Assembly (NCBI GenBank): GCA_035939775.1
Contig: DASZFO010000064.1
Span: forward strand, 1-64,000
Length of the DNA stretch: 64,000 nucleotides
Source of the DNA: Pirellulales bacterium
GTDB taxonomy: Bacteria; Planctomycetota; Planctomycetia; Pirellulales; DATAWG01
Direction of reading: 5' to 3'
The notes below the pieces were generated by a model. It was not told the DNA's origin, made no database searches, and worked only from the letters and a program-made list of their open reading frames with translations. The position numbers and the translations under genes were made by a program. Numbering within the stretch: position 1 is the stretch's first letter; each line of letters opens with the position of its first letter. Below are positions 17,991 through 35,581 of this stretch, in pieces.

Positions 17991-20837
17991 GTGATGTTTC
18001 GAGGCGTTGCATTGAATCGACTTGTCGGCGCGGCGGTGGGGGTTGCCGTGTCGCTGTGTGCCGCTTCAGCCGTCGCACAGCGCCCGCGGCTGTTGCAACT
18101 TCGCGCTCAGCCGGCACAGGAGGAGATCGTCGCGGCAGCGGGAAGCCCCTTCGGCGTCGGCAAGTTGACGGTCGCGCTGCCGCGCGGAGTCGGCGCTCCT
18201 TCAGTGCCCGAGGACGAATTTACGCTCGCCGAGAAGAATGGTCGAGCGCTTTATTCGACCTTTGGACAAGCACCGCTTCGAGGACTGTTGCGCGACTTCC
18301 TGGACCGTCCGCAGAGTGTGACGGTCTATTTCCTGTTCAAAGGAGACTCGCCGCTCGAACTCACGCTTTATGCTCCGACAGCCATCGAGCGGCAGATCGC
18401 GCCGCAAAACGACGCAAGTCTGCACGCCCGCTTGCTCGGCGAATGGTGGCGGGAATACGCAACCCGTTCGCGCCCCTTGGCCGATTTGGCTGGTCAAATC
18501 CTGCCGATCCCGATTCGGACGAACCGCAATGATGAGTATCCGCATTTAGTCGACACATATCTCGCGGCGATGCTCTCGCGTCGGCTTTCGCTGCCGGCGC
18601 CCGAGGAGCCGAATCGGTCGCTGCTTGGTGGGCGGCAATCCGACATCGGCCAGGCCGCCGGGCTCTTAGCTGGAACCGAGGCGACCCGGGCCGCGATGGA
18701 ACGCGAGATCATGCTCGGCAGCGGATCGAACCCCGAAGCCGCCGACCAGCCGGTTCCGCAGCCGGTTCAGATGACGGCGCTCGAGGAAGTGCCGCCGCCG
18801 CGCGAACTAAGGATCGAGCCGATCGCCGCGCACGTTCCCGCCGAGTGCCTATATCTCCGGTTCGGCAGCTTCGACAACTATCAATGGTTTCGCCGGCGGC
18901 TTGACGAGTGGGGGGGCGATTTGCGGAACCTGATGACGGCCCGCGGAGTGAATTACAACATGAACGCGCGGCTCGAGCGGCAGCTTTCCTTGCATGAGAC
19001 GCCGCTCTCCGCGCTGCTCGGGCCGACCGTGATTGCCGACGTGGCCCTGATCGGCGACGACACGTTCTTCCGCGAAGGGGCTGCGATTGGAATGCTATTC
19101 CAGGCCCGCAACAATTTCGGCCTCTCATCCGACTTCAATCGGCAGCGAGAAGAGGCCCTGAAGAACGAACCGGGCTGCACCGACCAGAAAGTCGAAGTCT
19201 CCGGCCACACGGTGTCGTTCCTGTCCACGCCCGACAATCGCGTGCGGTCGTTCTATGCCATCGATGGCGATTTCCATTTGGTGACCACCTCGCGAGCGGT
19301 GGTCGAGCGATTCTTCGCGGCTGGCAGCGGCAAGGGAGCGCTGGCCGACGCGGCCGATTTTCGTTACGGCCGGACGATCTTGCCGGAGGACCGCAACGAC
19401 ACCGTGTTCGCGTTTCTCTCGGAGGAATTCTTTCGGCAGTTGGCCAGTCCCGCCTATCAGATTGAAATGACGCGGCGGCTGCGATCGGCCACCGAAATCA
19501 ATCTCGTCGAGATGGCCCGCCTCGCCGCTCAGGCCGAAGGGGCGCCGAGCGCGACGCTCGAGCAGCTCGTCGCCGGCGGCTACTTGCCGAAAGGCGTTCT
19601 TGAGCGGCCAGACGGCAGCCGGCTAGTTCTCGAACAGGATGGCCAGGCGAGCGATTCGCTCCGCGGGGCGGAAGGCTCGTTCGTCCCGGTGCCGGACGTG
19701 AACCTGCGCGGCGTGACCCGTGCCGAGACGGCTGCATACGCCCGCTTCGCCGAATCGTTTCAAAGCCAGCTTGGCCGAATGGACCCGATCGTCGCCTCGG
19801 TAAAACAGCTTGGGGTCGAAAACGATCGCGAGCGAGTCGGCATTGCGGTGCGGATGCTCCCGCTCGCGCCGCAACACTATTCGCTGGCGATGCGTTTGCT
19901 TGGACCAGCCGAGCGGCAGCGGCTCGCCCCGATTCCCAGTGACGTGCTGACCGTCGAAGGTTTCGTGTCGGGAAGCGTTTTGTCGCTGTTTCAGTCGATC
20001 ATTCCCGGCGGCGTGGCGCAAGGCGGGCCGTATCACCTATTCGTCGGTGTCCGTAATGCCGAGCCATTCGATGCGCGCAATGGCCCTGCGGAGCCGCGCG
20101 GCGGTTTGTTGAGTTCGATCCCGTTCTATGTCGGCGCCTGGCCGACGCCGGGCATCCTGGGGCTGCTCGGCCTCGGGCGGGCTGATCAGCCACACGATCC
20201 GGATGGTTACGTTCAGACGAGACTCATGTGGGAGCGACAGATCGGACCGATCACCGTCGCCGCACCGCAACGGGAAACTCTCGCGGCCGTGACCCCGCAG
20301 TTGAAGATCGTCGATTCCGAGAGGCCGGCCCAATTGTGGCTGCACGTCGGAGACGTGACGCAATCGAAGCTCGCTGAGTTCAGCAATTCGCACGGCTACT
20401 CGCGGGCCCGACAAATCGCCGAGGGAAACTCGCGCTTTCTGCACTCGCTGACCACGCAACTCGGCGTCGCGCCGGAGCAGGCGATGACCATCGGCGAGCG
20501 GCTGCTGGATGCTAATCTCGTCTCACCCGTCGGCGGCCATTTTGAACTCGTGAAGCCCGAAGGGGAGTTTCCGATCTGGACTTCCACGGCGATGAAGGGC
20601 GAGAACCGCCGGGGACTGTCCCCTTTTGTGGGGCGGGCACTATCGCAAGATGGTCGGGAACAAAAGGGGACTGTCCCCCTCTCCGCTGGCGGTTCTCCGC
20701 CCGACGGATTTCAATCGCCGCCGCTCGACTGGTTTCGCGGGCTGGACGCGGAATTGGCCGTGGAGCAAGGCAAGCTCTCATTCGACGCTCAACTCCAAAT
20801 GCAGCGCCGTAATCGCGAAGGCAAGATCGCTCCGTAA
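17991..20837 (+). CDS. Large secreted protein of unknown function with C-terminal palindromic insert
   Basis: A 948-residue exported protein. GTG 17991 and ATG 17994 are both possible starts; AAGGAGGG lies 5-8 nt upstream. A signal peptide ends near SAVAQRP. Recognisable tracts include EPIAAHVPAECLYLRFGSFDNY at about residue 275, SLHETPLSALLGPTVIADVALIGDDTFFREG at 325, and YRSFYAIDGDFHLVTTSRAVVERF-like sequence near 420. These look like a planctomycete-specific conserved protein, but I cannot name the family. Residues about 871-903 come from a palindromic element read in frame (RRGLSPF ... QKGTVPLSAGGS), after which about 45 native-looking residues end the protein. It may have a surface or periplasmic role. 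Confidence 0.7.
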   Translation: MMFRGVALNRLVGAAVGVAVSLCAASAVAQRPRLLQLRAQPAQEEIVAAAGSPFGVGKLTVALPRGVGAPSVPEDEFTLAEKNGRALYSTFGQAPLRGLLRDFLDRPQSVTVYFLFKGDSPLELTLYAPTAIERQIAPQNDASLHARLLGEWWREYATRSRPLADLAGQILPIPIRTNRNDEYPHLVDTYLAAMLSRRLSLPAPEEPNRSLLGGRQSDIGQAAGLLAGTEATRAAMEREIMLGSGSNPEAADQPVPQPVQMTALEEVPPPRELRIEPIAAHVPAECLYLRFGSFDNYQWFRRRLDEWGGDLRNLMTARGVNYNMNARLERQLSLHETPLSALLGPTVIADVALIGDDTFFREGAAIGMLFQARNNFGLSSDFNRQREEALKNEPGCTDQKVEVSGHTVSFLSTPDNRVRSFYAIDGDFHLVTTSRAVVERFFAAGSGKGALADAADFRYGRTILPEDRNDTVFAFLSEEFFRQLASPAYQIEMTRRLRSATEINLVEMARLAAQAEGAPSATLEQLVAGGYLPKGVLERPDGSRLVLEQDGQASDSLRGAEGSFVPVPDVNLRGVTRAETAAYARFAESFQSQLGRMDPIVASVKQLGVENDRERVGIAVRMLPLAPQHYSLAMRLLGPAERQRLAPIPSDVLTVEGFVSGSVLSLFQSIIPGGVAQGGPYHLFVGVRNAEPFDARNGPAEPRGGLLSSIPFYVGAWPTPGILGLLGLGRADQPHDPDGYVQTRLMWERQIGPITVAAPQRETLAAVTPQLKIVDSERPAQLWLHVGDVTQSKLAEFSNSHGYSRARQIAEGNSRFLHSLTTQLGVAPEQAMTIGERLLDANLVSPVGGHFELVKPEGEFPIWTSTAMKGENRRGLSPFVGRALSQDGREQKGTVPLSAGGSPPDGFQSPPLDWFRGLDAELAVEQGKLSFDAQLQMQRRNREGKIAP
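20601..20697. repeat. GGGGACTGTCCCC element C, in frame in the 948-aa gene
   Basis: Bounded by GAGAACCGCC (20601-20610) and GGCGGTTCTC (20688-20697), with two perfect cores GGGGACTGTCCCC at 20611-20623 and 20666-20678. The host frame stays open for about 33 codons across it. Confidence 0.88.
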
Positions 20838-21918: not shown

Positions 21919-23148
21919 GTGTCGCAAGACATCCAAACGCGTCAGTTCGCCAACGGATTGGTATTGGTCGCCGAGCCAATGCAATCACTGGAATCGGCAG
22001 CCTTTACGGTGCTGGTTCCGGCCGGCGCCGCCTACGACCCTCCCGATCGCGGCGGACTCGGCACGCTCGTGTGTGAAATGTCGCTCCGCGGGGCCGGGAG
22101 CCGCGACAGCCGGCGGTTTATCGAAGACCTCGAGAACCTCGGCGTGCAGCGCGGCGAATCCGTCTCGACGATGCACACCAGCTTTAGCGGCGCAACGCTC
22201 GCGAAGAACCTCCCCGCCGCTCTGACGATTTATGCCGATCTGCTCCGTTCGGCCCACCTTCCAGCCGACCAACTCGAGGCCGGCCGCCTGGTAGCGATTC
22301 AGGAACTCCGGGCCATCGAAGACGAGCCGGGACACAAGGTCATGCTCGAGCTTCGGCGGCGGCATTATCCCGACCCCTTGGGCAAGCCGAGCGAAGGGGA
22401 AATGCAATCGCTCGAAGCGATCAGCATCGAGGAAATTCGGCGGCAATACGCCCGCCTCTATCGCCCCAACGGCGTGATTCTCGGCGTTGCCGGCCGGATT
22501 GATTGGAAGCGGCTCGTCGACTTAATCGGCGGCTTGCTCGGCGATTGGGAGCCGCTCGATCGTCCCGAGATCGAGCCGGGGCCGCTCGGCGCGAGGGTCG
22601 ATCACGTCGCGCATGAGGGGAATCAGACGCACGTCGGCATCGCCTACGACAGCGTGCCGTATCGCCACCCCGATTACTTTCAGGCCTCGGGCGCCGTCGG
22701 CGTGCTGAGCGGCGGGATGAGTTCGCGGTTGTTCACTGAGGTTCGCGAGAAGCGTGGCCTCTGCTACACGGTCTACGCCTCGTATCATACGCTCCGCGAT
22801 CGAGCGAGCGTGCTCTGCTATGCCGGGACGACGGCCGAACGGGCACAAGAAACGCTCGACGTGACGCTCGGCGAACTCAAGCGGCTCGCGGCGGGAATCG
22901 AACCCAACGAATTGTCCCGGCTCAAGGCACGCGTGAAGAGTTCGCTCGTGATGCAGCAAGAATCGAGTTCTTCGCGCAGCTCGTCGATCGCCCGCGATTG
23001 GTATCACCTTGGGCGGGTGCGCACGCTGGACGAGATCGGTCAGTTGGTCGACGCTCTGACATGCGATTCGATCAACGCTTATCTCGCCGCCCATCCGCCG
23101 AGCGATTTTACGATCGTCACCCTCGGACCGCGAGCGCTTGCGGTTTAA
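21919..23148 (+). CDS. M16 peptidase-like protein, non-catalytic subunit
   Basis: A 409-residue homologue of M16 zinc peptidases (pitrilysin / mitochondrial processing peptidase class). At the position of the HxxEH zinc site it has TLVCEM within GGLGTLVCEMSLRG, so the catalytic His and zinc ligands are missing. The C-terminal half keeps the substrate-binding R-Y type signature (LFTEVREKRGLCYTVYASY), which is normal for the inactive partner. The next gene encodes an M16 protein with the intact zinc site, so the two probably form a heterodimer, as in MPP alpha/beta. GTG at 21919 is the likely start. Confidence 0.83.
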   Translation: MSQDIQTRQFANGLVLVAEPMQSLESAAFTVLVPAGAAYDPPDRGGLGTLVCEMSLRGAGSRDSRRFIEDLENLGVQRGESVSTMHTSFSGATLAKNLPAALTIYADLLRSAHLPADQLEAGRLVAIQELRAIEDEPGHKVMLELRRRHYPDPLGKPSEGEMQSLEAISIEEIRRQYARLYRPNGVILGVAGRIDWKRLVDLIGGLLGDWEPLDRPEIEPGPLGARVDHVAHEGNQTHVGIAYDSVPYRHPDYFQASGAVGVLSGGMSSRLFTEVREKRGLCYTVYASYHTLRDRASVLCYAGTTAERAQETLDVTLGELKRLAAGIEPNELSRLKARVKSSLVMQQESSSSRSSSIARDWYHLGRVRTLDEIGQLVDALTCDSINAYLAAHPPSDFTIVTLGPRALAV

Positions 23149-23153
23149 CTTGC

Positions 23154-23181
23154 CGGCACTGGCCGACTTCGCTGGCCAGCG
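23154..23181. repeat. GCACTGGCC-type hairpin between the M16 genes
   Basis: A third copy of the hairpin family seen at 20895-20998, here GGCACTGGCC ... GGCCAGCGCC with a mismatch in the right arm. It lies in the short gap between the two M16 genes and could affect transcript stability. Confidence 0.6.
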
Positions 23182-23221
23182 CCACCCAATTGCGATGAAC
23201 ATCCAGTCATAGGGGGTCCAA

Positions 23222-24460
23222 GTGGAATTCCGCAACACAACGCTCGGCAACGGGCTGGAAATCGTCGCCGAGTGCAACGCCGAGGCTCATTCCTCGGCCT
23301 TGGGCTTCTTCGTTCAGACGGGCGCTCGCGATGAAACAGCCGATGTGGCCGGCGTGAGCCATTTCCTCGAGCACATGATGTTCAAGGGAACGGCCAAACG
23401 CAGCGCCGAGGACGTGAACCGCGAGTTCGACGAAATGGGGGCGCATTACAACGCCTTCACCAGCGAAGAGAGCACGGTCTATTACGCCGCGGTGCTGCCT
23501 GAGTTTCAGGAGCCAATCGTGCAGCTCCTCGGCGACATCCTCCGCCCGGCGCTGCGGAAGGAGGATTTCGACACCGAGAAGCAAGTGATCATCGAAGAGA
23601 TCAAGATGTACGAAGACCAGCCGCCGTTCGGGGCGGACGATAAATGCCGGGCCGCCCATTTTGGCCGGCACCCGCTCGGCCATAGCGTGCTGGGAACGGC
23701 CGAGAGCATCGCGGCGCTGCCGGTCGAGGCGATGCGGAAGTATTTTGCCCGCCGCTATTCGCCGGCCAATATCGTGCTCGCGGCGGCCGGGCGGATCGAC
23801 TTCGACGCCTTGGTCGGCACCACGGAAAAAGTTTGCGGCGGCTGGGAACAGGTAGATGCCCCGCGTGAGATTTCGCGGGTCGCAACGAAATCGGGATTCG
23901 AAGTGATCGCCAAGCCTTCGGCCACGCAGGAGTATTTGCTCGAAATGTCGGACGCCCCGTCCGCGACCGACGACGACCGCTATGCCGCCAAGCTGCTCAC
24001 CACCATCCTAGGCGACGATTCCGGCAGCCGGCTGTATTGGGAGTTGGTCGATCCGGGATTGGCGGAGAATGCCAGCTTGCACCATTACGAGTACATGGGC
24101 GCGGGAGCATTCTTGACGTATCTGAGCTGCGATCCCGAATTCGCCGCGAAAAACCTGCAGCGCGTGCTCGACATCTACCGCCAAGCCGAGCAAGACGGCT
24201 TCACCGCCCCCGAGTTGGCTCAGGCCAAGAGCAAGATCAACTCGCGGGTGGTGTTGGGGAGCGAACGGCCGCGGGGCCGGCTATTCTCAGTCGGCACGAA
24301 TTGGACGCATCGGCGGGCTTATCGCAGCGTGTCGGACGATCTGGACGCGGTCGAAGCGATCACCTTGGAGCAGCTTGCGACTGTCTTGGCCAAGTACCCG
24401 CTCAGCCGCTCGACTTCCGTGGCCATCGGCCCACTCGACCGTCTCCCGCCGCCGAATTGA
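23222..24460 (+). CDS. M16 zinc metallopeptidase, catalytic subunit
   Basis: A 412-residue M16 peptidase with the inverted zinc motif intact: HFLEH at residues 47-51, followed by VNREFDEMGAHYNAFTSEESTVYYA and the downstream Glu-rich segment EKQVIIEEIKMYED that supplies the third ligand about 75 residues later. The family cleaves small proteins or peptides in a closed chamber. The preceding gene encodes an inactive homologue, probably its partner. GTG at 23222 is used, with GGGGGT upstream. The C-terminal domain (DDSGSRLYWELVDPGLAENASLHHYEYMGAG) is of normal length. Confidence 0.88.
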   Translation: MEFRNTTLGNGLEIVAECNAEAHSSALGFFVQTGARDETADVAGVSHFLEHMMFKGTAKRSAEDVNREFDEMGAHYNAFTSEESTVYYAAVLPEFQEPIVQLLGDILRPALRKEDFDTEKQVIIEEIKMYEDQPPFGADDKCRAAHFGRHPLGHSVLGTAESIAALPVEAMRKYFARRYSPANIVLAAAGRIDFDALVGTTEKVCGGWEQVDAPREISRVATKSGFEVIAKPSATQEYLLEMSDAPSATDDDRYAAKLLTTILGDDSGSRLYWELVDPGLAENASLHHYEYMGAGAFLTYLSCDPEFAAKNLQRVLDIYRQAEQDGFTAPELAQAKSKINSRVVLGSERPRGRLFSVGTNWTHRRAYRSVSDDLDAVEAITLEQLATVLAKYPLSRSTSVAIGPLDRLPPPN

Positions 24461-24663: not shown

Positions 24664-24951
24664 GTGAGCGGTGGCGAGTCGCGTGAGCGGCGGGTGGTGC
24701 ATTTTCGCGGCCAGGTCCAGGGCGTGGGCTTTCGCTACACGGCCGCGCGGATCGCCGGCCATTTCGACGTGAATGGGTATGTGCAGAATCTTCCCGACGG
24801 CCGGGTGCTTGTCGTCGCCGAAGGGCGAGCCGCCGAACTCGATCGTTTACTTCAGCGAATCCAAGTCGAAATGGGGCGTTATATCCGGGATGCGAACACC
24901 ACCACCGGACCCGCCAGCGGCGAGTTTCAGGGCTTTGATGTGCGGTACTAA
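24664..24951 (+). CDS. acyP: Acylphosphatase
   Basis: A 95-residue enzyme that hydrolyses acyl phosphates such as acetyl phosphate or 1,3-bisphosphoglycerate. The active-site loop is VQGVGFRYT at about residues 18-26 (catalytic Arg), and the second signature GYVQNLPDGRVLVVAEG carries the catalytic Asn. The length is normal for the family. GTG 24664 follows an AGGAG-containing site. Three bases separate its stop from the start of the ABC permease gene, so they may be co-transcribed, without an evident functional link. Confidence 0.9.
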   Translation: MSGGESRERRVVHFRGQVQGVGFRYTAARIAGHFDVNGYVQNLPDGRVLVVAEGRAAELDRLLQRIQVEMGRYIRDANTTTGPASGEFQGFDVRY

Positions 24952-26546: not shown

Positions 26547-26792
26547 ATGCCCTATTACGAATTCCTCTGGACTGACGACATTATGGAGCATCTTGCTGAG
26601 CACGGTATTGCCCAGGATGACTTCGAGCATGTCGTTTGCAACCCGACGTCCAAGGGTATTAGTCGTTCGTCGAACCTTCCGGCCGCCTGGGGCCACACTT
26701 CGGACGGCCGATACATCATTGCGGTTTACGAAGAATTGGACGAGTTGACGATTCTTCCGGTGACCGCGTACATGGTTCCCGAGCCCGATTGA
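26547..26792 (+). CDS. BrnT-like putative toxin
   Basis: An 81-residue basic-to-neutral protein with a pattern like BrnT/RelE-type toxins: LAEHGIAQDDFEHVV (helix with HG, then acidic residues), WGHTSDGRYIIAVYEEL (beta hairpin around DGRYI) and a closing ILPVTAYMV strand. The gene directly downstream encodes an XRE-like HTH protein with a 3-9-nt gap, the usual arrangement of a toxin with an HTH antitoxin. The BrnT assignment is by pattern only; a housekeeping role is possible. Confidence 0.55.
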   Translation: MPYYEFLWTDDIMEHLAEHGIAQDDFEHVVCNPTSKGISRSSNLPAAWGHTSDGRYIIAVYEELDELTILPVTAYMVPEPD

Positions 26793-26801
26793 GGTGTGCG
26801 C

Positions 26802-27134
26802 ATGACCCAACGACAAATCAAGCGATTCACTCGCCCACTCACCGAGTCCGAGCACGATCGCTTGCAGCGATACCGCGCTCAGATCGCCGCGGAGTTGCCG
26901 GAGCTTCAGTCACGAGATCAGATGCGAAAAGAAGCGCGGGAAGAGCCCACCCTCAGTGGCGAACTCCGCCGCGCGATCCACGCCAGCGAGCATTCGTTGG
27001 CCGAGGTTGGAGCCCTGGCGGGCCTCACGCCAATCATGCTCGACGATTTCCTGACCGGCGAACGTACTTTGCGGTCTGATGTCTTGGATCGCCTCGCCGC
27101 GGCAGTTGGCTACGAACTGCACCGTACACCCTGA
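26802..27134 (+). CDS. XRE-like HTH protein, putative antitoxin
   Basis: A 110-residue DNA-binding protein (ATG 26802; a GTG six bases earlier is an alternative). The C-terminal half is a helix-turn-helix of the Cro/XRE class: LRRAIHASEHSLAEVGALAGLT, then MLDDFLTGERTLRSDVLDRLAAAVGYEL. The N-terminal half is charged and helical (TESEHDRLQRYRAQIAAELPEL). It follows the BrnT-like gene almost without a gap and would repress that operon if the two form a toxin-antitoxin pair. Confidence 0.65.
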   Translation: MTQRQIKRFTRPLTESEHDRLQRYRAQIAAELPELQSRDQMRKEAREEPTLSGELRRAIHASEHSLAEVGALAGLTPIMLDDFLTGERTLRSDVLDRLAAAVGYELHRTP

Positions 27135-27216: not shown

Positions 27217-29175
27217 ATGCATTGGAATTCGTTTCATCGGGCCCGTCGCTTCGGGCCGCCGCCGCTGGGAATGCGGCTGGCCGTTTATGGGTCGAGCCTG
27301 CTGGCGGCGGCGCTGATGGTGCTGCTGATCGTGGCCTTGGGCGCGATCGCTGATCTGGCGACCAGTCGCGGCAATCTGTCGATCGATGCTCGCGCGAAGG
27401 AGCAACTTCAAGAGATCGAGCGGCTCTCTGGCAGCCCTGACGCCTCGGTCGGCGAGCAGGTCCGGTATGACGGCCGCGGGCTATTGCCGGCCGTTTGGCG
27501 GTTGCACGGCACTTGGCTCGGGAAGATTAGCGACGGTCTGTATGCGAGTTGGCCCGCCTTGCAGCGCAACGACTCTTGCGTGCCGGCAATCGTCGTCACG
27601 GGATGGTGCCTTTCGCTATTGCTGGCGGTCGCCTTGTATTTGCTCGAACGGTCCGCACGCGTTTCGACCCGAAATGCCGTGCAGCGATTGCGGCTCGCGC
27701 TCTATCAACAATCGGTTCAACTTGGGGCGGGTGACCTGTTGCTAGGACAAAGGCAAAGCGTCGTGGAACTGTTCGTCGATCGTGTCGAGGCGCTCGCCAG
27801 AGGATTGGTGCGCTGGTCGCGGGCCGTGCCGCTTGCGGTCGTGCTGTTGCTGTTGTTGGCCGTCACCGCGATGTACGTCGACTTCTGGCTCACTCTGGCC
27901 GCGATCCTGTTGGCCGTTCTAAGCCGGCTGATGCTCGAAGGGCTGCGAAACAGCTCGAAGCGGCGCGGGACGTTTTGGGCCGACGTGGCCGCTCAACAAT
28001 GCGATACGCTCGTCGAAGACTTGCAGCAGGCGCGGTCGCTGGGCAACTTCGCCCCGGCCACCGTTTTGCCCGGCGGATCAGTTCCGGAGCGATTGCAGCA
28101 TTGCCACGCTGCCTCGGTTCGACAGCACATAAGCCCCGCGGTGAACGAGCCGGCAGTGCTGATGTTCGTACTTTTCGGGGCGTGGTTGATTCTCTTGCTC
28201 GCCGGGTTGAATGTGCTCAGAGATCCGCCGCGAGTGCTGTTCGCTGGGACGGTTGTATTGGGAGCGTCCGTGGTTTCGATGGTCTTTCCGTTGCGGCTCT
28301 TGCAACGATTGCTGCAAGAATTGCCCGAGGCCGATCGCGCGGCGGCCGACATCATGGGGTATCTCGATCGCCAGCCAAGCGTGGGGCAGGTGCCCGAGGC
28401 GAAGCCGATCACTCCGCCGATGAAGCAACTGGCGCTGGTGAACGTTCGGCTCTCGGATGCCGCCGGCATGAAGCTGCTCGACGACGTGTCGCTCACGATC
28501 CCTTGCGGCAGCCGCACGGCGGTGATTGCCTCCGACCGAGAAACGCCGTTCGCCGTGGCCGGGCTGCTGCCCCGGTTTTACGATCCGACGGCGGGAAGAG
28601 TGCTGTTCGATGGGCAAGAAATTGGCCGGGGAACGCTCGCTTCGCTGCGCGGGCACGTCGGGTTGTTACTGCCGGGGCGAATCCTGGCGACGGGAACAGT
28701 TAGCGAGAACATTTCCGGCGGCGATCCGCGGTATTCAGCCCGCGAAGTGATCGAGGCGGCTCGGCAGGCGCTGGCCTACGATTTCATCCAGAAACTGCCG
28801 CACGGCTTCGACACCGTCGTGGGCGAGCATGGCCTGCATCTCTCGGCGCCCGAGGCGATGCTGCTGGGCGTCGCTCGGATTCTGATTCATGATCCGGCGG
28901 TGGCGATCCTGGGTGAAACAGCCGATCGCTACGACGCGACGACCGAGGACACGCTTAACGCGGCCACGGGCCGGCTGGCTGCCGGCCGGACGCTGATCGT
29001 GTTGGCACGCCGCCTCGCCACCTTGCGATCCGTCGAACGGATCTTATTGTTCCACGAAGGAAAGCTGCACGCCGACGGCAGCCATGGCGAGCTGCTCGAA
29101 CAGTCTGAGTTGTATCGCCATTTGAACTACGTGCGGTTCAACGAATTCCGCAATCAGGTCAGCGGCGATTGGTAA
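27217..29175 (+). CDS. ABC exporter homologue with degenerate nucleotide-binding domain
   Basis: A 652-residue protein with the layout of a half-size ABC exporter: membrane helices in residues 20-370 (for example LLAAALMVLLIVALGAI, AVVLLLLLAVTAMY, LMFVLFGAWLILLLAGL) and an NBD-like domain from about 405. The NBD keeps flanking sequence (LLPRFYDPTAGRVLFDG, LARRLATLRSVERILLFHEGKLHADGSHGEL) but not the catalytic motifs. The P-loop is ASDRETPF at 438-445 with no Lys, the LSGGQ position is LSAPE at 542-546, Walker B has Gly in place of Asp (AILGE), and the H-loop His is Arg598. ATP hydrolysis is unlikely. The start at ATG 27217 is the first one compatible with the membrane domain. Confidence 0.72.
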   Translation: MHWNSFHRARRFGPPPLGMRLAVYGSSLLAAALMVLLIVALGAIADLATSRGNLSIDARAKEQLQEIERLSGSPDASVGEQVRYDGRGLLPAVWRLHGTWLGKISDGLYASWPALQRNDSCVPAIVVTGWCLSLLLAVALYLLERSARVSTRNAVQRLRLALYQQSVQLGAGDLLLGQRQSVVELFVDRVEALARGLVRWSRAVPLAVVLLLLLAVTAMYVDFWLTLAAILLAVLSRLMLEGLRNSSKRRGTFWADVAAQQCDTLVEDLQQARSLGNFAPATVLPGGSVPERLQHCHAASVRQHISPAVNEPAVLMFVLFGAWLILLLAGLNVLRDPPRVLFAGTVVLGASVVSMVFPLRLLQRLLQELPEADRAAADIMGYLDRQPSVGQVPEAKPITPPMKQLALVNVRLSDAAGMKLLDDVSLTIPCGSRTAVIASDRETPFAVAGLLPRFYDPTAGRVLFDGQEIGRGTLASLRGHVGLLLPGRILATGTVSENISGGDPRYSAREVIEAARQALAYDFIQKLPHGFDTVVGEHGLHLSAPEAMLLGVARILIHDPAVAILGETADRYDATTEDTLNAATGRLAAGRTLIVLARRLATLRSVERILLFHEGKLHADGSHGELLEQSELYRHLNYVRFNEFRNQVSGDW

Positions 29176-33943: not shown

Positions 33944-35581
33944 TCAAGGATGGATGCCATTGAGCCGGCAACAAAGCGGCACGATCGGCGAGGAGTCGAA
34001 AAAGTCGCAGATGACCACGTTGATCTTCTCGTGCCCCGGCCAGCGCTCGATGCCGCGCATCGCACTGCCTTGGCCGCCGCGGGTGAGGTATTCGAGATCA
34101 AACGACGGGTTCGTGGCCGAGCCGCGGTTGGCCAGATCGATGCCGATGACCTCTTGATTGGCGGTCACGGTCCAGGACAAGACAAACAACTTGCCCGGCT
34201 TTTGAGCCGCGAGCTTTGCCTTCTGGTCCGCCTCGACCTGTGTCCAGATAGCGCGGTTCGCGTAGCTACCGCCGAAAGCCTCATTGGCATCGAAGGCGAA
34301 CGGCGCGTGATCCGTATGTCCCTGGAAAAACACGATCACGCGACTTTTCGAGCCAGTTAGGAGGTCGACCAAGCGAGTCTTCAGGACCGCGGCTTCACTC
34401 TGAGCGTTGTTTGAGCCGTCTTTCCGATAAACATTCTCCGCGCCTAATTCCGTAAGGATCGCCGCGCTCAACTTTTCCCAAACTTCGCTGGGTGCGTCGT
34501 TCAATCCCTGCCAATTGCAGAATTCCAAGACGATCAACTCGTGCTCGTGGCCCGGCGCTTCGATAAAGGCCCGGATTTGGCGAAGCATGTCTCGCGTCTT
34601 CGGGCCGAGCAGGGCGTGATGGAAGTAAAAATCGCTCCCGTCATACGCCGTTCGCATGTCGAGCCAACGGATGCCCCCTTCGAGTTGCTCCTTGATATCG
34701 AGCCGTTGCGTTTTGGCCCAGGGCTTCGTGATATTGAGGCCCAACCCGGCCAGCCACTCGGCGGTGCTGCGCTCGGGAGATTTGCGGTCGCTGAGGTCGT
34801 AGGCGCCGCTGTCGTGCGTGCCCGGCAGCGCGACCTGCGCGAGCGTTTTGTCGGCGAGCGTCGTGAAGTTTCGAGTCATCCAATTGTCGTAACGCCGAAC
34901 GACGGCCGGGCTGGAATTCGCACCGGGTAACGCTTCGTCTTTGCCGATGATTTGCAGACATCGCGCCAATTCGAGCGACGCAAAATACACGTCGCTTCGC
35001 TCGCCGATGGTCGCCCGAGCGGGACGCAACTCCGACTGCAAAACGGGCTGCCACTCTGGAAGGGTCGCAGAGGAATCGACCGAAGCGAGCAATTCGGGGC
35101 AGGTTGTTCCCGTGGCCTCCTGGTATCGCTGTTTCGATTCGGTGGCCAACTTCGGGGCAGGCGGAAAGTGAACCGTGACGTCGATCTCGCCTCGTTCCTC
35201 GTTCGACAGTTCGCGGAGAGTCCCAGGCTGATGATCGAGGTATCGAATCGCTTGTTGGATATCGACAACCAGCTTGAAACCGGCTGCGGCTTGCTCGCCG
35301 TTCAATACTTCCACGTAATAGGCGCGAATTCTCTTGCCCTCCTCGGGCGCCAATCGGTCATCCCATTGGTCGATGCAGGTGAAATCCCCACCGCCGGCGA
35401 CGGCCGGCGCGATTTCCCTTCCGCTTGAATCATCGTGCCTGATCCGCACGCTGTATCCCGATTCGCGCGAAACCGCGGGATCGAGTCGGATGCAGAGTTT
35501 GGTTGCCGCCAATAGGGGCATCGCCGGCGCGAGCGCGAGGGCGCCGGCCAACAAGACTCGTCGGATCGGAAGCAGCATCAT
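33944..35581 (-). CDS. Secreted PI-PLC X-domain-like phosphodiesterase
   Basis: A 545-residue exported protein with a signal peptide (RRVLLAGALALAPAMPLLAA). The C-terminal two thirds carry a phosphatidylinositol-specific phospholipase C X domain: LPGTHDSGAYDL (first catalytic His), QLEGGIRWLDMRTAYDG, and FYFHHALLGPKT (second His region). It then has VIVFFQGH and a C-terminal LFVLSWTVTANQE. The N-terminal 200 residues look like a beta-sandwich of unknown role. It is divergent from the FAD oxidoreductase with 84 bp between the starts. Confidence 0.8.
   Translation of the reverse strand: MMLLPIRRVLLAGALALAPAMPLLAATKLCIRLDPAVSRESGYSVRIRHDDSSGREIAPAVAGGGDFTCIDQWDDRLAPEEGKRIRAYYVEVLNGEQAAAGFKLVVDIQQAIRYLDHQPGTLRELSNEERGEIDVTVHFPPAPKLATESKQRYQEATGTTCPELLASVDSSATLPEWQPVLQSELRPARATIGERSDVYFASLELARCLQIIGKDEALPGANSSPAVVRRYDNWMTRNFTTLADKTLAQVALPGTHDSGAYDLSDRKSPERSTAEWLAGLGLNITKPWAKTQRLDIKEQLEGGIRWLDMRTAYDGSDFYFHHALLGPKTRDMLRQIRAFIEAPGHEHELIVLEFCNWQGLNDAPSEVWEKLSAAILTELGAENVYRKDGSNNAQSEAAVLKTRLVDLLTGSKSRVIVFFQGHTDHAPFAFDANEAFGGSYANRAIWTQVEADQKAKLAAQKPGKLFVLSWTVTANQEVIGIDLANRGSATNPSFDLEYLTRGGQGSAMRGIERWPGHEKINVVICDFFDSSPIVPLCCRLNGIHP

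Follow-up and report, generated by a model that had tools for sequence, protein, structure and literature searches.

A Type IV ABC Exporter Family with Eroded Nucleotide-Binding Motifs, Conserved beside an ABC-2 Permease in Planctomycetes

Introduction

What remains for an ABC exporter to do once the residues that bind and hydrolyze ATP have gone? The question is raised by one gene of the window, the stretch of 64,000 nucleotides from a Pirellulales genome. Degenerate ATP sites are well known in ABC exporters, as one of the two sites of a working pump. A review of such sites deals with exporters in which one of the two is impaired (PMC7756269). No description of planctomycete or fully dead ABC exporter families was found in the open-access literature, to which the search was confined, so this absence is weak evidence. 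The gene was originally predicted to encode an exporter homologue that had lost all of its nucleotide-binding motifs simultaneously and had been kept for a new function, such as a receptor, a scaffold or a partner of another ABC half. The protein, referred to below as the pseudo-exporter, was followed through its relatives, its predicted structure and its gene neighborhood.

Results

Reading Frame, Motifs and Predicted Fold

The features of the locus are collected in Table 1. The reading frame of the pseudo-exporter contains neither a stop nor a frameshift, as originally stated. The frame is open upstream to an alternative ATG at 27079; a start at that position would overlap another small ORF, and the relatives mostly begin near 27217. 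The five motif changes read from the sequence (a Walker A without Lys, the missing Q-loop Gln, LSAPE, AILGE and the H-loop Arg) were all confirmed. The claim that every motif is eroded holds for the P-loop Lys, the Q-loop, the signature, the Walker B Asp and the H-loop; it is a slight overstatement because E567, the Glu of Walker B, and D573, the Asp of the D-loop, have both been kept.

Table 1. Features of the Pseudo-Exporter Locus (Window Coordinates)
Feature	Position	Strand	Remarks
Acylphosphatase	24664..24951	+	conserved neighbor of the permease
ABC-2 / NosY-like permease, 501 aa	24955..26460	+	no adjacent ATPase
Two small ORFs between permease and pseudo-exporter	26547..27134	+	81 aa (26547-26789) and 112 aa (26796-27131)
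ATP-dead type IV ABC exporter (pseudo-exporter)	27217..29175	+	652 aa; TMD ~residues 1-395, NBD-like domain ~396-644
Extracytoplasmic insertion, TM1-TM2 of pseudo-exporter (~residues 51-117)	27367..27567	+	predicted folded, block pLDDT ~89-93
Eroded Walker A, residues 438-445 ASDRETPF	28528..28551	+	no second Gly, Lys or Ser/Thr
Eroded Q-loop, residues 483-488 LLLPGR	28663..28680	+	P486 at the Gln position
Eroded signature, residues 542-546 LSAPE	28840..28854	+	
Walker B, residues 563-567 AILGE	28903..28917	+	Gly566 replaces Asp; catalytic Glu567 retained (118/118 in family)
H-loop position, Arg598	29008..29010	+	His in 24/24 canonical paralogues
C-terminal helix LYRHLNYVRFNEFR (residues 632-645), family hallmark	29110..29151	+	R634, H635, Y638 and F641 invariant in 118

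The Pfam match of the protein is weak and covers part of the NBD only (29.8 bits); despite this, sequence search places it clearly among the ABC exporters. The best NCBIfam models are MsbA and MsbA_rel, and the score against the MsbA equivalog is 173 bits, far below the cut-off of 602. The AlphaFold2 model is confident (pLDDT 87.7) and predicts the type IV exporter fold, with a six-helix membrane domain and a C-terminal NBD fold. The best PDB matches obtained with Foldseek and VIA-align are the type IV exporters MsRv1273c/72c, ABCB10, MsbA and TmrAB. TM287/288 is also among the closest solved folds; like MsRv1273c/72c and TmrAB, it is a heterodimeric exporter with one degenerate site. The insertion between TM1 and TM2 is apparently missing from the shorter (~600 aa) Pirellulaceae-like members of the family.

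Extent and Phylogeny of the Family

An alignment query returned 144 relatives, and a protein-only scan of the contigs returned none. After removal of duplicates, the comparison set comprised 118 sequences in which the canonical Walker A is missing and 24 canonical paralogues in which it is kept. The 118 distinct relatives of the pseudo-exporter are all intact. Orthologues eroded in the same way were located in related genomes, both in several families of the order to which the window belongs and in further families of its class. From the named records, we take the two carrier groups to be Pirellulales and Planctomycetales; the named records with the C-terminal hallmark are from planctomycetes, including Alienimonas chondri, Gimesia, Schlesneria and Fuerstiella.

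In a FastTree phylogeny the pseudo-exporters form a monophyletic clade that contains 0 canonical sequences, and the possibility of canonical relatives concealed within the dead family was therefore rejected. The SH-like support is 0.75 at the crown node of this clade and 1.0 at the node that unites 114 of its 118 members. All 13 of the scored motif residues are found in each of the 24 canonical paralogues, and from 2 to 7 of the 13 in the dead family. The motif set of an active pump (GK[S/T], LSGGQ, Walker B DE, Q-loop Gln and H-loop His) is not found in the family: GK[S/T] and the SGG of the signature each occur in 0/118 sequences, the Q-loop Gln persists in 11, the H-loop His in 10, the P-loop Lys in 4 and the Walker B Asp in 3, and the Walker B Glu is present in all 118. 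The R-H-x-x-Y-x-x-F pattern of the C-terminal helix is family-specific, with H635 and Y638 present in none of the canonical paralogues. Since the same erosion recurs through 118 sequences whereas the paralogues retain the full motif set in 24/24, chance or sequencing error is a very unlikely source.

Order of Motif Loss and Selection

The deepest clade of the family, with four sequences, retains the Lys of the P-loop, the Gln of the Q-loop and the His of the H-loop, but has neither a signature nor the Asp of Walker B. The erosion was therefore stepwise, and the two features missing from this clade were probably the first to go. The original claim of a simultaneous loss is contradicted by the same clade.

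Pairwise values of omega were calculated by the NG86 method for close pairs with usable dS, and those obtained at dS > 1 are rough. For the NBD-like domain, omega is ~0.02-0.06 in most close pairs and reaches ~0.16 in more divergent pairs; in nearly every close pair it is lower than that of the TMD. The neighboring ABC-2 permease gives ~0.02-0.05 within the same genus. Purifying selection, which had been proposed as a test in relatives, is thus strong on the dead NBD. Together with the 118 intact relatives, the low omega also led to the rejection of sequencing error as the source of motif loss. The pseudo-exporter has probably been maintained since before the split of its two planctomycete orders.

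The Neighboring ABC-2 Permease

The gene order in the window is acylphosphatase, ABC-2 permease, two small ORFs and pseudo-exporter. The AlphaFold2 model of the permease (pLDDT 86.3) has NosY of NosDFY as its best Foldseek match, in agreement with an ABC-2 permease fold, and the Pfam ABC2_membrane_2 match falls just below the cut-off. The invariant positions of the permease are E306, G309, T311 and L316-P319; they lie in a strongly conserved EIEGRTALT-LSKP segment, presumably the region through which an ABC-2 permease is coupled to its ATPase. No cognate ATPase of a NosFY-type full system is encoded alongside in the neighborhoods examined, and no conserved ABC ATPase was found within several kb of the permease there. 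The few loci that do have an ATPase at such a distance hold nonconserved ones: a DrrA-like protein encoded beyond lpxK (L037), a member of an Mla-like set (L105), one beside a MacB-like permease (L109) and a LolD/MacB-like protein (L116).

The permease and the pseudo-exporter are adjacent and on the same strand in nearly all neighborhoods of both groups, and the other flanking genes vary. A pseudo-exporter was assigned to 111 distinct permeases; 107 of these lie directly upstream of it and 4 are unlinked. The search for a conserved partner, as had been advised, gave a conserved neighbor, this ABC-2 (NosY-like) permease. The permease is present in 274 of the 296 genomes of the window's order and the pseudo-exporter in 31, a lower bound set by a strict threshold; the permease accompanies the pseudo-exporter in every one of the 31 and adjoins it in 28. 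In the remaining class, 28/28 sampled genomes have both genes, which are unlinked in 2. The two genes are unlinked in at least five genomes.

The two small ORFs are an insertion in the window's genome and are not found in the nearest relative (L031), where the gap is 235 bases. The 81-aa ORF has no clear family, the 112-aa ORF has a weak HTH_31 match, and the layout resembles a toxin-antitoxin pair.

At loci without a pseudo-exporter, the acylphosphatase and the permease are usually still together. An acylphosphatase also adjoins a NosY-like permease in distant planctomycetes without a pseudo-exporter (L230 and L231), an old linkage that is unexplained.

On the permease tree, the pseudo-exporter was lost ~10-15 times in Pirellulales, since a single-gain model requires ~15 losses and plain parsimony 13 changes; the count is given as a range because some nodes are weakly supported and two loci scored as absent have the gene nearby. 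Absence or breakage in relatives had been named as the sign of decay. Whole-gene absence from many Pirellulales was indeed found; no broken copies were seen. Most Pirellulales have kept the permease and have no pseudo-exporter; in these genomes the permease is thus independent of it.

The distances of the pseudo-exporter and the permease are highly correlated (r = 0.90). Such congruence points to joint vertical descent and, taken alone, is no evidence of contact. Permeases with and without a pseudo-exporter look alike. When the two sets were compared, no permease position conserved only in the presence of the pseudo-exporter was found, and hence no coevolutionary trace of direct contact.

Flanking Genes

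The identities of the lpx genes given here rest on our own reading of the sequences. A cluster of a Gfo/Idh oxidoreductase, (lpxA), lpxC and an ompH/skp-like gene is located near, or convergent to, the acylphosphatase-permease operon in many Pirellulales. The lpx-ompH cluster appears at loci with or without the pseudo-exporter (L032, L033, L034, L036, L115 and L117; also L221, L222, L225-L227 and L237). In one genome (G049), an lpxK-like gene (L037, 7749-8882, -) immediately follows the pseudo-exporter gene and shares its strand. This order resembles msbA-lpxK of E. coli, and as a general arrangement it was rejected because it is present at L037 alone. The genes for lipid A synthesis are essential in the planctomycete Planctopirus limnophila (PMC10632474). 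A link of the pseudo-exporter to envelope lipids is weakly suggested by the lpxA-lpxC-ompH cluster, the single lpxK case and this essentiality.

Tandem M16 peptidase genes are located upstream of the operon (21919-24460, +), in an order conserved at L032, L033 and L035. The window also contains two large ORFs without any Pfam match, at 17991-20837 (+, 948 aa) and 33944-35581 (-, 545 aa).

Discussion

The explanation that best fits these results, to which we assign about an even chance, is that the pseudo-exporter functions as an ATP-independent accessory subunit or regulator of an inner-membrane ABC-2 permease system. The protein, a half-transporter of the type IV ABC class, would presumably form a homodimer. 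Judged from the family-wide motif loss, it would not use ATP in the standard way because the P-loop, signature, Q-loop and H-loop are gone. The membrane domain and the NBD-fold scaffold may hold or gate the permease, or may hand over a membrane-borne substrate; the invariant C-terminal helix is a likely docking surface, and any energy would come from an ATPase encoded elsewhere. An envelope lipid is a reasonable, though tentative, guess for the substrate, since the lipid A gene cluster adjoins the operon in many Pirellulales. In favor of this explanation are the intact and monophyletic family, the low omega of the NBD-like domain, the family-specific C-terminal helix, the adjacency of the permease across two orders and the lack of a conserved ABC ATPase beside it. 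Against it stand the persistence of the permease alone in most Pirellulales, the lack of any permease position tied to the presence of the pseudo-exporter, and the genomes, at least five, in which the two genes are unlinked.

A more specific proposal is a hybrid ABC complex, in which the nucleotide-free type IV pseudo-exporter would be a structural or regulatory subunit of the type V (ABC-2) permease in two planctomycete orders. We advance this tentatively, as a possibility that falls short of an even chance. If it is true, an ABC exporter fold has taken on a new role in both orders, as a subunit that is not an ATPase.

The protein might instead act alone as an ATP-independent facilitator of lipids or solutes, a channel or a receptor, and its linkage to the permease would then reflect a shared pathway (co-expression) with no complex. 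The membrane domain is intact and conserved, many members have the folded extracytoplasmic insertion, and both the lack of detected coevolution and the five genomes with unlinked genes are as expected for such a protein. A pure channel would not, however, require the NBD-like domain to be its most constrained part, and the adjacency to the permease is tight (107/111); we consider this alternative somewhat unlikely.

A dead half of a heterodimeric exporter, with the live half encoded elsewhere as in TAP, TM287/288 or MsRv1273c/72c and with all motifs of the one half gone, is an unlikely identity for the pseudo-exporter. It would agree with the degenerate-site exporters among the closest solved folds, with the canonical exporters present in the same genomes, and with the D-loop Asp and the signature remnant (the second Gly and the Gln) that most members have kept. 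A live half would, however, need the signature in trans, and SGG is intact in 0/118; no canonical exporter adjoins the pseudo-exporter in any neighborhood examined. The original suggestion of a partner of another ABC half is accordingly not upheld in its usual heterodimeric sense, the neighbor being an ABC-2 permease.

A sensor that still binds a nucleotide or other ligand at a remodeled site, without hydrolysis, would account for the strong constraint on the domain and for the Walker B Glu, which is found in 118/118 sequences and in 116/118 has a Pro after it, as part of a new EEP motif, but it is very improbable given the divergent Gly and Ser/Thr positions of the P-loop (GK[S/T] in 0/118) and a Lys in only 4/118. 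Simple decay, in which a pseudogene was caught before loss of its frame, would be consistent with the many losses in Pirellulales and is dismissed in view of the 118 intact relatives, the low omega and the presence of the gene in 28/28 sampled genomes of the remaining class. The part of the original prediction that concerned a retained function is instead supported by intact orthologues in two orders, low omega and a conserved neighbor.

An accessory or regulatory role beside the permease is the preferred reading. Family-wide loss of the ATP machinery, with the dead domain the most constrained, would make the pseudo-exporter an ABC pseudoenzyme of a kind not found described. The family offers a test of what the NBD fold does once it is free of ATP, its conserved gene pair brings the type IV and type V architectures of ABC proteins together, and it may bear on the envelope biology of planctomycetes.

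Comparison with Known Systems

In SUR1 and SUR2, too, a protein with the ABC exporter fold is a subunit that regulates a different membrane protein. The partner there is a K+ channel, and SUR itself binds nucleotides, whereas the pseudo-exporter has no P-loop and neighbors an ABC-2 permease. The permease of the window is NosY-like by fold, as in the ABC-2 (type V) systems NosFY and NosDFY. Unlike in NosFY, no NosF-type ATPase adjoins it, and a dead type IV exporter stands there instead, an arrangement that to our knowledge is not known from the Nos system. With TAP1/2, TM287/288 and MsRv1273c/72c the pseudo-exporter has in common both the fold and deviations in the NBD motifs. The degenerate half of heterodimeric exporters generally keeps its P-loop. 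One site stays catalytic in those exporters, whereas the NBD of the pseudo-exporter is wholly dead and no live half is adjacent. The type IV exporters MsbA, ABCB10, TmrAB and Atm1 resemble it over the whole fold (Z ~30, rmsd 5-8 over ~570 residues) and are homologous in NBD sequence; the pseudo-exporters differ from them as a family without the motifs for ATP binding and hydrolysis and with a C-terminal helix of its own.
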